Shown: piece by piece, positions 3,097-35,099 of the stretch | How the letters are laid out: the number at the start of each line of letters is the position of its first letter | Position numbering within the stretch: position 1 is the stretch's first letter | The notes under the pieces: model-generated | Seen by the model: the letters and a program-made list of their open reading frames with translations, nothing else | Databases searched by the model: none | What the model was told of the DNA's origin: nothing | IMG/VR virus record: IMGVR_UViG_3300030118_004212 | Location: 1 to 35,099 of that record | Source: a virus | Length of the DNA: 35,099 nt | Reading direction: 5' to 3' (one strand) | Position numbers and translations under genes: made by a program

Positions 3097-4284
3097 TTAA
3101 ATTTTGTGTCTATCAAGCACTACAAGAAGTTTATCTACTAAATTGTCCATCATTGCAGATGTATGGTTTGGGCCTGGACAAAATCTTAGACGTTCAGTAC
3201 CTTTTGGCACTGTAGGATAGTTAATAGGTTGGACATAAATACCATCTTTATACAATAAATCATCAGATATCTGTTTACATTTTACAGGATCTTTAATAGG
3301 TACAGGAACAATGTGACTTTTATTGTCTAATATAGGTATGTTGTTTTTCTTGAATTTTTGTTTTAGTCGGTTTGCTTTTAAGTGTAAATCACATCTTAAC
3401 TCGCTATGCTCTCTAACATATTTTATAGATGCTAATGCACCAGCACACAAAACAGGAGATAAAGATGTTGTGAAAATAAAAGCAGGTGCATAACTACGAA
3501 TTGCATCTACGAATGTTTTACTGGCAGCGATGTAACCACCTTGTACACCATACGCTTTTGCAAGAGTGCCATTTATAATATCTGGCTTAACACCCTTTTC
3601 TTCACATACACCTGCACCGTTAGGTCCATACAATCCAACAGCATGAACCTCATCTATATAACTAATTGCATCGTATTTTTTACACAGGTTTACAATTTTT
3701 TTAACAGGTGCTATATCACCATCCATACTATACACAGATTCGAATACTACACATTTAGGACCTTTTACGCTTTTCAATATATCTTGTAATTCATTTAGAT
3801 TATTATGTTCCCAAATGATTTTGTCGGCACGACTATGCCTTATACCTTGTATAAGTGAACTATGATTATTACTATCACTTATAAAAGTTATATCTGGTAT
3901 GATTTTTGCGATTGTTTCTAATGTAGTTTCATTTGCATTAAAAGCGCTTGTAAAAAGAAGTGCAGATTCTTTTTGATGTAAACGTGATAGTTCTAATTCA
4001 AGGGCTACATGATAATGGGTAGTGCCTGATATATTTCTTGTTCCGCCACTGCCGGCACCTGCAGTTTCTAAAGCTGTTTGCATACTATCTAAAACAAACT
4101 GATGTTGACCCATACCTAAATAATCATTAGAACACCAGTTTACAATTTTCTTGATGGCATACTTTGAATACCAAATTGCTTGAGGAAAGTCTCCACGTAC
4201 TCGCAAGATATCATTGAATACACGATACCTGCCTTCTTGTTTAAGAGTTTCTATTGCTTTTTCAAACTTGTCATCATTTTGCAT
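3097..4284 (-). CDS. hemA: 5-aminolevulinate synthase (alphaproteobacterial, C4 pathway)
   Basis: 395 aa, the normal full length. It condenses glycine and succinyl-CoA to 5-aminolevulinate, the first step of heme synthesis in alphaproteobacteria. Family landmarks are all present: [10 protein letters not shown] near the N-terminus, [23 protein letters not shown], the DEVHA segment (Asp for the PLP ring nitrogen), the PLP lysine in TLAKAYG (K243), and [11 protein letters not shown] near the end. Start ATG 4284 overlaps the upstream stop (TAATG); a TTG at 4299 is less likely. It is the last gene of the nucleotide-metabolism unit, after a Fe-S carrier. It appears intact and is probably an auxiliary metabolic gene that boosts host heme or tetrapyrrole supply. 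Confidence 0.95.
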
Positions 4285-4490
4285 TAAGTGTAATACCAAT
4301 ACTCATTTGCTGTTCGCTGTTTATACGCTTCTTCAAAACCTTCCATGCCATAACCAGCACGTTCACAGTTACCCCATAATCTTCTAAAGTAACTATCATA
4401 CGAAGAAGTTATAGTTTCATGTGATGCATTTAAATGTCCTTTGACTAGCCAAAAAAGCCTATACGCTTGTTCGATTTCAAACTTAGTCAT
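4284..4490 (-). CDS. Small hypothetical protein in the hemA unit
   Basis: 68 aa, rich in aromatic residues (7 Tyr, 3 Trp) with a helical N-terminus ([17 protein letters not shown]). It overlaps both neighbours: ATGA with the upstream nuclease gene and TAATG with hemA. This tight coupling suggests it is made together with the synthase. No family is recognised. Confidence 0.75.
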
Positions 4491-4897
4491 TTCAGACCCT
4501 TTACATGACTCCTGTGAATTTTACAATTAATGATGCCGTTGTAATATTCTTCTTTCAATAGAACCTCCCTATCAAATTGTTCCTTTGCTTCCAAATAAGA
4601 CATTTCGCCTTTGTTATTACATAGATGTAATATTTCTCTTTTAAAATTATTACCTTTATGTGTTTCTACTAACTCTTTTACTTCTTCAGATGAACCATAA
4701 TAATCTTGCCAATCAGATTCAACTATTTTAGTTCTTCTTCTTGCCTTACCTTTTAATGGAGGTAACCTACGTTTTGATTGAAATAGTTTTTTGCCTACAT
4801 ATTTTTTATCATCTAATAAATTTGTAATAACATAAACAAATCCTATATAATCACCTATATCATCTGATGTAAATTCTTTATTATTATATAACCACAT
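4487..4897 (-). CDS. GIY-YIG-type endonuclease (SegE-like)
   Basis: 136 aa from ATG 4897, which overlaps the upstream stop (TAATG); a start at 4927 would lie inside the Fe-S carrier gene. Residues 20-36 (FVYVITN...KKYVGKK) carry the FVY and YVG forms of the GIY-YIG motif. A basic stretch (KRRLPPLKGKARRRTK, 42-57) and a candidate catalytic Glu near 103 follow. It resembles free-standing phage homing nucleases of the T4 Seg type. No DNA-binding C-terminal module is visible, so it may be a minimal or non-homing nuclease. Confidence 0.75.
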   Translation of the reverse strand: MWLYNNKEFTSDDIGDYIGFVYVITNLLDDKKYVGKKLFQSKRRLPPLKGKARRRTKIVESDWQDYYGSSEEVKELVETHKGNNFKREILHLCNNKGEMSYLEAKEQFDREVLLKEEYYNGIINCKIHRSHVKGLK

Positions 4898-5181
4898 TAT
4901 ACTGCAAAACTCTCTCCACATCCACAAGAGGCTGTTGCGTTTGGATTAATCACTTTCAAATAAGAACCACCAAGTTCTTCTACATAATCTACAGTACATC
5001 CAAATACAAACATTTCAGCCATAGGGTCTAACCATAGGTTCTCTACAGTTGGTTGTTTATCTGTTACACCCCACTCGTATTGGAAACCAGAACACCCTCC
5101 ACCTTTCACTGTAAGTGAAACATTTGGTTTTCCAACTTTTTTAAGATAATCTTTAGCGTTTTGTGTTAGATTTAAAATCAT
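4897..5181 (-). CDS. A-type iron-sulfur cluster carrier (HesB/IscA/ErpA family)
   Basis: 94 aa, slightly short for the family (usually about 105-120). The three cluster-binding cysteines are at C30 (GGGCSGF), C86 and C88 (SCGCGESF). Known members pass Fe-S clusters from the scaffold to client enzymes; similar genes occur in T4-like marine phages. The start overlaps the upstream gene (ATGA at 5178-5181). It sits between ribonucleotide reductase and heme genes, so iron-dependent phage or host enzymes are plausible clients. That link is inference. Confidence 0.92.
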   Translation of the reverse strand: MILNLTQNAKDYLKKVGKPNVSLTVKGGGCSGFQYEWGVTDKQPTVENLWLDPMAEMFVFGCTVDYVEELGGSYLKVINPNATASCGCGESFAV

Positions 5182-32481: not shown

Positions 32482-33654
32482 TTATAATTCTATTACTTGT
32501 GCTGTACACTTTCCACCAAATCCAAACGAATTATTAAGTGTTCTAAGTGTCTCATTTGTCTTTATTCGCACATTTTCTCTGGGTAACATTTTAAAAGGAT
32601 CTACCCAATTTTTAGTATTAGCTATTTTAGGGATAATCTTATTCTGCATACATAAGATAGAATATATTGTTTCAAGTGCTCCTGCCGCTGCTAAAGTATG
32701 ACCAATCATTGATTTTGGTGCCCATAAAGGTGTTACGCCTAAAATATCAGAAACAGCATTATATTCGATAGGATCTCCTATAGGTGTAGCTGTTGCATGT
32801 CCACAAACAAAATGAATAAGATTATTTCCACAATTTTCTCTTGCTTTTTTCATCGAAATTCTTTCACCTATACCATCTGGTGCAGGACTTGTCATATCTG
32901 TAGCATCATTTGCTTTGCCTGGTTTATATAATTTTGCAATAGGTTTAGATTTATATTTTTCTACTTGTTCTTCACTTTGAATAATTAGAATACCTGCTCC
33001 TTCGCCCATAACAAACCCTTTTCTATTTTCATCAAAAGGAATAGATTCGTTTGCGAGTGCACCTATTTGTGTAAAATATTTCATAGCAAGAGAATTACAT
33101 CCTGCATCAGATCCTCCCACAATAACGTAGTCATATTCATCTGCAAGATACATTCCATAATCGATTGCAGTCATTCCTGTTGAACAACTACTATAAACAG
33201 CAACGCTATGTCCATGAAATTTGTAATGTGAGGATATATGTGATGGACACATATCTGGAATACGATTAACTAATCTCCTTGGATTAGTTCTTTTATTGTT
33301 TATAATTTTAGTAAAAAGTTCAGGTCCATCTTCAACATCATTTGATACAGTTCCTACTATAACTGCAACATTTGATGAATGAGGTAAGTTAGCCATCTTT
33401 AATGCTTGGTCGGTAGCATGTAAAGCCATTGACTGTGCTTTTGTTAAAGATTTTATTACCTTAGGAGAAAAGTTATCAGGCATGACAATACTATCTGTAT
33501 CGACTTTATAACCTCGATAGACCTTATAGTTTTCTGTTTTTAAGGGCTCAATATCCGTACTAAAATTATTGCCGGACAACATGTTTGACCAGCATTCAGT
33601 AGGATTATTGCCTAAGACATCTATCATGCCGTAGCCAACTATATAACAATTCAC
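32482..33654 (-). CDS. Beta-ketoacyl-ACP synthase (FabF/KAS II family)
   Basis: 390 aa, nearly full length (FabF about 410). Catalytic Cys C157 (SSCSTG), H286 (CGHATAT), K314 and H319 (PKSMIGHTLAAAG) and the ending GFGG loop are all present. It elongates acyl-ACP with malonyl-ACP. GTG start with AAAGGG. It is the only fatty-acid gene in the window, with no acyl carrier protein beside it, so it would act on host ACP. It may raise unsaturated lipid supply or make a special acyl chain. A phage-borne copy is unusual; the sequence is somewhat diverged (for example GTVSNDVEDG) but looks active. Confidence 0.92.
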   Translation of the reverse strand: MNCYIVGYGMIDVLGNNPTECWSNMLSGNNFSTDIEPLKTENYKVYRGYKVDTDSIVMPDNFSPKVIKSLTKAQSMALHATDQALKMANLPHSSNVAVIVGTVSNDVEDGPELFTKIINNKRTNPRRLVNRIPDMCPSHISSHYKFHGHSVAVYSSCSTGMTAIDYGMYLADEYDYVIVGGSDAGCNSLAMKYFTQIGALANESIPFDENRKGFVMGEGAGILIIQSEEQVEKYKSKPIAKLYKPGKANDATDMTSPAPDGIGERISMKKARENCGNNLIHFVCGHATATPIGDPIEYNAVSDILGVTPLWAPKSMIGHTLAAAGALETIYSILCMQNKIIPKIANTKNWVDPFKMLPRENVRIKTNETLRTLNNSFGFGGKCTAQVIEL

Positions 33655-34347: not shown

Positions 34348-34355
34348 TATAAATA
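34348..34355 (+). promoter_or_regulatory. T4-type late promoter on the plus strand
   Basis: Perfect TATAAATA on the plus strand after a run of T. It is the only late element I found facing right outside coding DNA, and it precedes a structured region and a terminator. Confidence 0.55.
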
Positions 34356-34378
34356 ACAGTGCATGGGTGCGTGTGAAT

Positions 34379-34495
34379 GTGTTCAAATTAACGCAAGAGG
34401 CAAGTGTGATATTAGATTTTATTGACTTCACAGAAGGAATAGTCGGGGTAGCAGAAATGCCCGTGGGGTTCGGCCCGACCACGCAGGGGTGCTAA
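34379..34495 (+). CDS. Possible 38-aa plus-strand peptide
   Basis: GTG 34379 opens VFKLTQEASVILDFIDF..., ending GPTTQGC. The amino-acid pattern is protein-like, but there is no ribosome site and codons such as GGG, CCC and CCG are rare in neighbours. It competes with the structured-RNA reading of the same bases. Confidence 0.22.
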   Translation: MFKLTQEASVILDFIDFTEGIVGVAEMPVGFGPTTQGC

Positions 34496-34496
34496 A

Positions 34497-34528
34497 AGCG
34501 CTAGTTAGGAAACTAATTAGCGCTTTTT
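34497..34528 (+). terminator. Strong intrinsic terminator, usable in both directions
   Basis: 12-bp stem AGCGCTAGTTAG/CTAATTAGCGCT (one G-U) with a GAAA tetraloop and TTTTT on the plus strand; TTTT on the minus strand. It can end the plus-strand RNA and also the helicase gene, whose stop is 3 bases away. Confidence 0.85.
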
Positions 34529-34530
34529 CT

Positions 34531-35099
34531 TTATGTGAAGTCAGCAAATGCTTTTGATTTTTTCTTCTGTAAACTAAAATCATCTAACACAGGACTATCA
34601 TCAACTAATGTTTGTGCAGAATCTTCTACATCAAACAATCTCATTTTAGATCTATCAATACCCACAACAAATCTTTTTAGTGTATTTACGTCTCCCCATC
34701 TATTTTTCAACTGCTTAATCATAATTTGTCCTAATGATTCTAATTCTTCAGTTGAAATAAGACCTACCATTAAATCTGCTGTTGCTGGCAATCCAAATGA
34801 TTCTGATGTATCTTCTAATCCAATGTCTGAATTACTATAACCAGAACGTGTAGTTTGTGTTGCTGTGACAACAGGTATATTACATTCTACTGCCAATCCT
34901 CGTAATTCTTCAGCAATAGCTTTTACCAATGTATATGAATTTACATTTGCACCCATACGAATACGGCTAGACATACAAATGTTTAGATAATCGATATACA
35001 CAATGTCTGGATGAAAGTTTTTCTTAAGACGTAGTTCATTAATAAGATGTCTAAAATGTGCTGAACCTGCTGATGCAGTAGGATATTCTTTGATAATTA
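34531..35099 (-). CDS. 41: Replicative DNA helicase, T4 gp41-like, C-terminal part
   Basis: The last 189 codons; the gene continues past the right edge. KEYPTASAGSAHFRHLINEL then PDIVYIDYLNICMSS (Walker B, D-Y of RecA-like core), IPVVTATQTTRSG (sensor Gln) and RWGDVNTLKRFVVGIDRSKMRLFD are typical of T4 gp41/DnaB helicases. It unwinds DNA at the fork with the gp61 primase encoded at 10170-11198. The C-terminus (QKKKSKAFADFT) is a basic tail. Confidence 0.93.
   Translation of the reverse strand, partial: IIKEYPTASAGSAHFRHLINELRLKKNFHPDIVYIDYLNICMSSRIRMGANVNSYTLVKAIAEELRGLAVECNIPVVTATQTTRSGYSNSDIGLEDTSESFGLPATADLMVGLISTEELESLGQIMIKQLKNRWGDVNTLKRFVVGIDRSKMRLFDVEDSAQTLVDDSPVLDDFSLQKKKSKAFADFT

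Follow-up and report, generated by a model that had tools for sequence, protein, structure and literature searches.

A structured RNA family encoded near the helicase gene gp41 in a group of T4-like phages

Stand-alone RNAs carried by phages are, as a broad kind, already known. GOLLD is a structured, non-coding RNA of hundreds of nucleotides that is carried by phages and whose function is largely unknown, and the stable RNAs C and D of T4 are small RNAs of unknown function located in the T4 tRNA cluster. The packaging RNA of phi29 is a phage-encoded junction RNA that binds a phage protein and thereby acts in trans; we know of no T4-type terminase that requires an RNA. The structure of GOLLD has been reported (PMC12286853), and the RNAs described from T4-like cyanophages and methylophages include glnA, wcaG, manA, PhotoRC-II, CfrI, abiF and a phage tmRNA (PMC9964418, PMC10665884, PMC9004378).

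The RNA family described here resembles each of these systems in part. Like GOLLD it is structured, non-coding and phage-borne, but it differs in having a conserved core of about 90-120 nt, a T4 late promoter box and a link to gp41, and in lacking any Rfam match. It is a small RNA of T4-type phages, as are RNAs C and D, but those two belong to the T4 tRNA cluster and the T4 genome is without a family match. The cyanophage and methylophage RNAs are likewise elements of T4-like aquatic phages, but these are mostly cis-regulatory or antisense, whereas the present family forms a late unit of its own with no Rfam counterpart. With the packaging RNA of phi29 it shares a junction and a similar size, but the helix order and motifs are different and the Rfam search gave no match to it.

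The starting point was a 35-kb virus record from IMG/VR (IMGVR_UViG_3300030118_004212), the whole of which (35,099 nt) is referred to as the window. A fragment of the gp41 helicase together with other genes places the window among T4-like phages, and no close isolate was found among 50,697 phage records. As a preliminary description of this DNA had stated, the window is mostly transcribed leftwards and contains a GC-rich core (64% GC at 34450-34499 vs 35% in the whole window). Its main open reading frames are on the minus strand, including both genes flanking 34348-34528. The window also encodes, on its minus strand, a 5-aminolevulinate synthase, a heme-precursor gene (3097-4299; TIGR01821, 562 bits, cut-off 339); alaS on phages has already been published (PMC11480375). 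Further minus-strand genes are a pseudoazurin, a copper electron-transfer protein, here in a T4-like phage (23483-23917; TIGR02375, 112.8 bits, cut-off 109.85), a FabF-like beta-ketoacyl synthase with both Pfam domains that scores under the curated NCBIfam cut-offs (32482-33654) and an IscA/ErpA-like Fe-S protein (4897-5181). In two relatives (L134 and L003), a gene that appears IscU-like by eye, from its sequence, adjoins the RNA.

A search of IMG/VR with the gp41 fragment yielded 80 relatives, 22 of which had a clear copy of the RNA, according to the model, adjoining gp41 on either strand. DNA patterns based on the three conserved blocks then served for further scans, which used no gp41 information and from which most copies came. 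At least 144 copies with at least 122 distinct cores were collected from IMG/VR, and the family is larger than the collected copies. The unpaired strands GAGGCA[A/C]G and GGAAUA and the loop UGGGGUU are near-invariant, a conservation that is partly selected because the search patterns hold the same blocks (including GAGGCA[A/C]G); copies found through gp41 alone (e.g., L002, L006, L008, L012, L014, L020 and L027) have the same blocks with small changes. Each stretch searched had one strong model match, each of ten large contigs (50-173 kb) had a single copy, and the GC content of the RNA was above that of its contig in 119 of 122 cases. A divergent copy on L028 (2453-2597, plus strand; 19 bits) keeps TATAAATA, P1- and P4-like pairs and the terminator, with changed junction strands and loop.

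In the window, the RNA is preceded by a T4-type late promoter box and followed by an intrinsic terminator (Table 1). Both elements had been named in the preliminary description and are present, the box TATAAATA on the plus strand and the GAAA-capped terminator with a stem of 14 bp rather than the 12 bp given there. The terminator stem has a predicted energy of -19.3 kcal/mol (z -5.8) and lies outside the conserved fold, with no overlap. Among the relatives, a late box was found in all 119 distinct copies with 60 nt of upstream sequence, as exact TATAAATA in 97 (8-18 nt 5' of P1) and as xTAAATA in 22, while TATAAATA has a background of 1.1% in random 60-nt stretches. A terminator-like hairpin with a T-run was present within 80 nt of P1 in 120 of 120 distinct copies with enough downstream sequence, compared with 5% of random stretches, and several same-strand copies have another late box just past the terminator. 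With the TATAAATA box standing before the RNA, the locus has the sequence arrangement of a T4-type late transcription unit. This layout strongly supports the RNA being a gene of its own, and we infer that it is transcribed, that its transcription is late and that it acts in trans. The feature first described is confirmed and proves larger than stated there, and the earlier suggestion of a small phage RNA equipped with a late promoter and a terminator of its own is strongly supported by the box and terminator in every copy with enough flank and by the many compensatory changes.

Table 1. Features of the RNA locus in the window; the counts given for the junction strands are subject to the partial selection by search patterns described in the text.
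Feature	Coordinates	Strand	Basis or remark
T4-type late promoter box TATAAATA	34348-34355	+	Sequence and relatives
Predicted transcript, about 168 nt	34361-34528	+	5' end by the T4 late-promoter spacing, 3' end by the terminator
P1 5' strand UGCGUG	34368-34373	+	Pairs with 34480-34485
P2 5' strand UGUGUU	34378-34383	+	Pairs with 34390-34395; two-sided changes at 5/5 pairs; RNAalifold consensus
P2 3' strand AACGCA	34390-34395	+	Covariation
Junction strand GAGGCAAG, near-invariant	34397-34404	+	GAGGCA[A/C]G in 115/118
P3 5' strand UGUGA	34405-34409	+	Pairs with 34428-34432
P3 3' strand UCACA	34428-34432	+	Hairpin at fixed place
Junction strand GGAAUA, near-invariant	34436-34441	+	112/118
P4 5' strand GUCGGG	34442-34447	+	Pairs with 34474-34479; at most 4 pair types per position
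P5 optional hairpin GCA-GAAA-UGC, large form only	34451-34460	+	Alignments A1/A2, constrained fold
P6 stem CCG/CGG (34461-34463/34471-34473), loop UGGGGUU (34464-34470)	34461-34473	+	Varying triples
P4 3' strand CCCGAC	34474-34479	+	Covariation
P1 3' strand CACGCA	34480-34485	+	Covariation
Intrinsic terminator: 14-bp stem (34495-34508/34513-34526), GAAA loop, U-run	34495-34528	+	
gp41 replicative helicase, partial, off window edge	34531-35097	-	Pfam DnaB_C and phrog_19; syntenic neighbour of the RNA

In the fold common to the family, P1 closes a junction of P2, P3 and P4, and P6 caps P4. Already in the first, unfitted MAFFT alignment the P4 pairs were 98-100% paired with at most four pair types, and the outer pair of P6 occurred as CG, AT, TA and GC at 100%. 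An alignment of 44 sequences (P1, P2, P4 and P6) had 93.3% of its cells paired; 18 of its 19 pairs had two-sided changes, and its covariation score of 0.605 compares with 0.264 after shuffling and 0.06-0.17 with slid partners, the slide control being the sole correction for phylogeny in these covariation counts. In this alignment P4 was 99.2% paired, and P1 was 97.7% paired with two-sided changes at 5 of 6 pairs, values that favour P1, as pairing had guided the choice of its ends. A further 40 sequences, delimited with the model derived from the first set, were 90.0% paired (P4 99.2%, P1 98.3%, P6 99.2%) and scored 0.537 vs 0.212 shuffled and 0.04-0.11 slid. Taken together, 10-11 of the 12 pairs in P1 and P4 had compensatory changes in each of two separate alignments, and RNAalifold, unguided, recovered P1, P2 and P4. 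The P6 triples were CGG/CCG in 50 cases, AGG/CCU in 37, CCG/CGG in 16, UGG/CCA in 9 and CAC/GUG in 3. P3 is a hairpin of varying sequence at a fixed place (mean z +1.26), and in alignment A4 it was 92.9% paired with two-sided changes, on columns picked on A4 itself. Compensatory changes beyond both the shuffled and the slid controls are what a structured non-coding RNA would display, and on the strength of these alignments this is a real structured RNA family, with a fold that is kept while its letters change. The absence of such changes and of conservation in relatives had been set beforehand as the refuting outcome; this test has been run, and the RNA survived it.

Folding of the window copy itself gave a z of -3.8 for 34378-34540 (0 of 200 shuffles as good), much of which is provided by the terminator, as 34361-34496 without the terminator gave a z of -1.25. 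The compact GC-rich nested stem previously proposed at 34450-34493 was, taken by itself, no better than shuffles (z +0.67 for 34440-34500 and +0.79 for 34430-34500) and the conserved pairs are different ones. For the window copy considered singly, the conserved fold has a predicted energy about 9 kcal/mol higher than that of the optimal structure; the mean pairing probability over 119 copies was 0.68 for P1 and 0.57 for P4.

The position of the RNA relative to gp41 is constant in one respect and variable in others. The gp41 gene is present on 112 of 122 contigs, the other 10 stretches having limited flank on that side, and the RNA is on its 3' side in 112 of 112, at a distance of 39-3390 nt and on the same strand in 70 and the opposite strand in 42. 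Often uvsX is near the RNA as well. In the same-strand layout a late gene is located 3' of the RNA; in the opposite-strand layout, to which the window belongs, no plus-strand gene follows the RNA. On a tree of gp41, carriers of the RNA cluster in deep groups, requiring 6 changes vs 40.7 with shuffled labels, and some of the 6 stem from mislabelled rows (L063, L004, L018 and L028, scored as non-carriers owing to the merging of identical copies or to divergence of the copy). The RNA is kept across deep gp41 branches, with the divergent copy in place in L028, while cyanophages, the Melnitz methylophage and others on this tree lack it. Within what was searched, the family is restricted to a group of T4-like phages. 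Most same-strand loci (e.g., that of L059, as U1) encode, in the interval separating gp41 from the RNA, a protein of about 70 aa with the motif F(D/N)G(F/W)(T/S)P; it was found in 89 of 114 loci with the RNA vs 4 of 45 without, has no PHROG and no match in the 50,697 phage records, and is absent from the window.

Searches against described RNAs and genomes returned no relative. In a scan of the window against Rfam 15 (4,227 models) at the gathering cut-off, only four tRNAs were detected, and at E ≤10 nothing credible matched the plus strand of the window core or of three relatives (L128, L108 and L097); the only Rfam matches with E <1 were to the terminator read on the minus strand. Neither ARAGORN nor Rfam identified the RNA as a tRNA or tmRNA. 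A blastn search with the window element and three relatives against the 50,697 phage records gave chance matches of at most 42 bits, in addition to gp41 itself. The model had no real match in 20 named phage genomes, namely P-SSM2, Melnitz-2, HTVC008M, T4, KVP40, Cr30, phiM12, S-PM2, S-SM2, ACG-2014f, DSL-LC03, S-CREM1, Mosig, S-CRM01, RM378, Ma-LMM01 and four single-cell marine viruses. A 21.5-bit match in KVP40 was a tRNA-Leu and sets the noise level, under which the matches in P-SSM2 (15.6 bits) and S-CRM01 (14.7 bits) fall. No copy was found when 84,980 genomes of bacteria and archaea were scanned with two patterns. Resemblances to RNase P and to T-loops were considered and dropped. In a literature search that covered few subscription papers and compared RNA lists from Rfam only, no published description of the family was found. 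The RNA family is new in the sense that no described relative was found in Rfam or the literature searched.

As to function, we consider it probable, from sequence and layout, that this is a stand-alone late RNA acting in trans, most likely bound by protein through its invariant strands. A phage-modified RNA polymerase would start just past TATAAATA (34348) late in infection and stop at 34528, and the resulting RNA of about 168 nt would fold into a compact junction with P1 closing it, P2 and P3 as hairpins and P4 carrying P6. The RNA would then act in trans, and GAGGCA[A/C]G, GGAAUA and the UGGGGUU loop would most likely be its working surface, to which a protein of the phage or the host, or an RNP, would bind. 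As no plus-strand gene follows the RNA in the opposite-strand layout, the RNA is unlikely to control a downstream gene in cis, and this layout favours action in trans. Helices that are free to change alongside fixed junction strands and a fixed loop form the pattern of a bound surface, and we infer from it that a protein or RNP partner is most likely. A more specific reading, to which we would assign a low probability, is that the RNA forms a small RNP late in infection and thereby captures, or mimics, some component of the host machinery for translation or transcription, which, if true, would be a new functional class of phage RNA. In a post hoc comparison, GAGGCA, GUGGGG and GGAAUA were all found within 19 nt of E. 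coli 16S rRNA (348-366, L292), in an order that differs from that in the RNA; letter-shuffled motif triples co-located within 40 nt in rRNA in 0.085% of cases, and mimicry of this 16S segment is possible.

Among the other functions considered, a base-pairing sRNA acting in trans, with the UGGGGUU loop or the junction strands pairing with phage or host mRNAs and altering their translation or stability, has in its favour an invariant G-rich 7-nt loop at the tip of a stem, which is a common seed layout, as well as its own promoter and terminator. We regard it as rather unlikely, as the complement AACCCCA is not enriched (41 seen vs 57.5 expected in carriers, 11 vs 19.3 in non-carriers) and is absent from E. 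coli rRNA, and as seed RNAs do not typically have a rigid multi-helix core or junction strands that are invariant. An aptamer-like junction followed at once by a terminator, together with the late gene downstream in the same-strand layout, would suit a riboswitch, an attenuator or a 3' processing signal acting on an adjacent gene. Such a cis element is improbable, given that in 42 of 112 contigs, and in the window, the RNA faces the 3' end of gp41, that no plus-strand gene follows it in the window for which it could be the 5' leader, that fold and terminator are separate and that a further late box stands beyond it in several same-strand copies. The compact multi-helix fold and near-invariant unpaired strands would also fit a self-cleaving or otherwise catalytic RNA, but no Rfam ribozyme family matched even at E ≤10 and the RNA has its own transcription unit with nothing placed for cleavage, making this very unlikely.

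Two readings raised in the preliminary description fare worse. An origin transcript or DNA element for replication beside the helicase gene would account for an RNA that is always near gp41 and often near uvsX. T4 origins use middle promoters, unlike the late-promoter box present here, and the finely conserved fold, in which compensatory changes act on RNA pairing, and the variable strand and distance to gp41 speak against this reading, which we hold to be extremely improbable. The idea that the 38 codons starting at 34379 are a tiny protein gene is refuted by the pattern of indels and deserves almost no credence. The frame does exist and is open in the window with a GTG start (the longest ATG frame at this site has 20 aa), but the spacing of conserved anchors covers all values modulo 3 in 119 copies (49/45/25 and 41/40/38), and since it is not kept in multiples of three, the RNA is not a coding gene. 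The three frames are open in 42, 14 and 9 of these copies, so that none is open in most, and no frame is kept in relatives.

In total, aquatic phages for which no isolate was found, and which are usually read for proteins only, gain an RNA family that had not been described and that has at least 122 distinct members. The covariance model can now be used to annotate these phages. A fold kept through much sequence change, a late promoter of its own and one copy per contig point to strong selection on the RNA itself, and this raises the testable question of what purpose a structured RNA serves in the late phase of infection by a T4-type phage.
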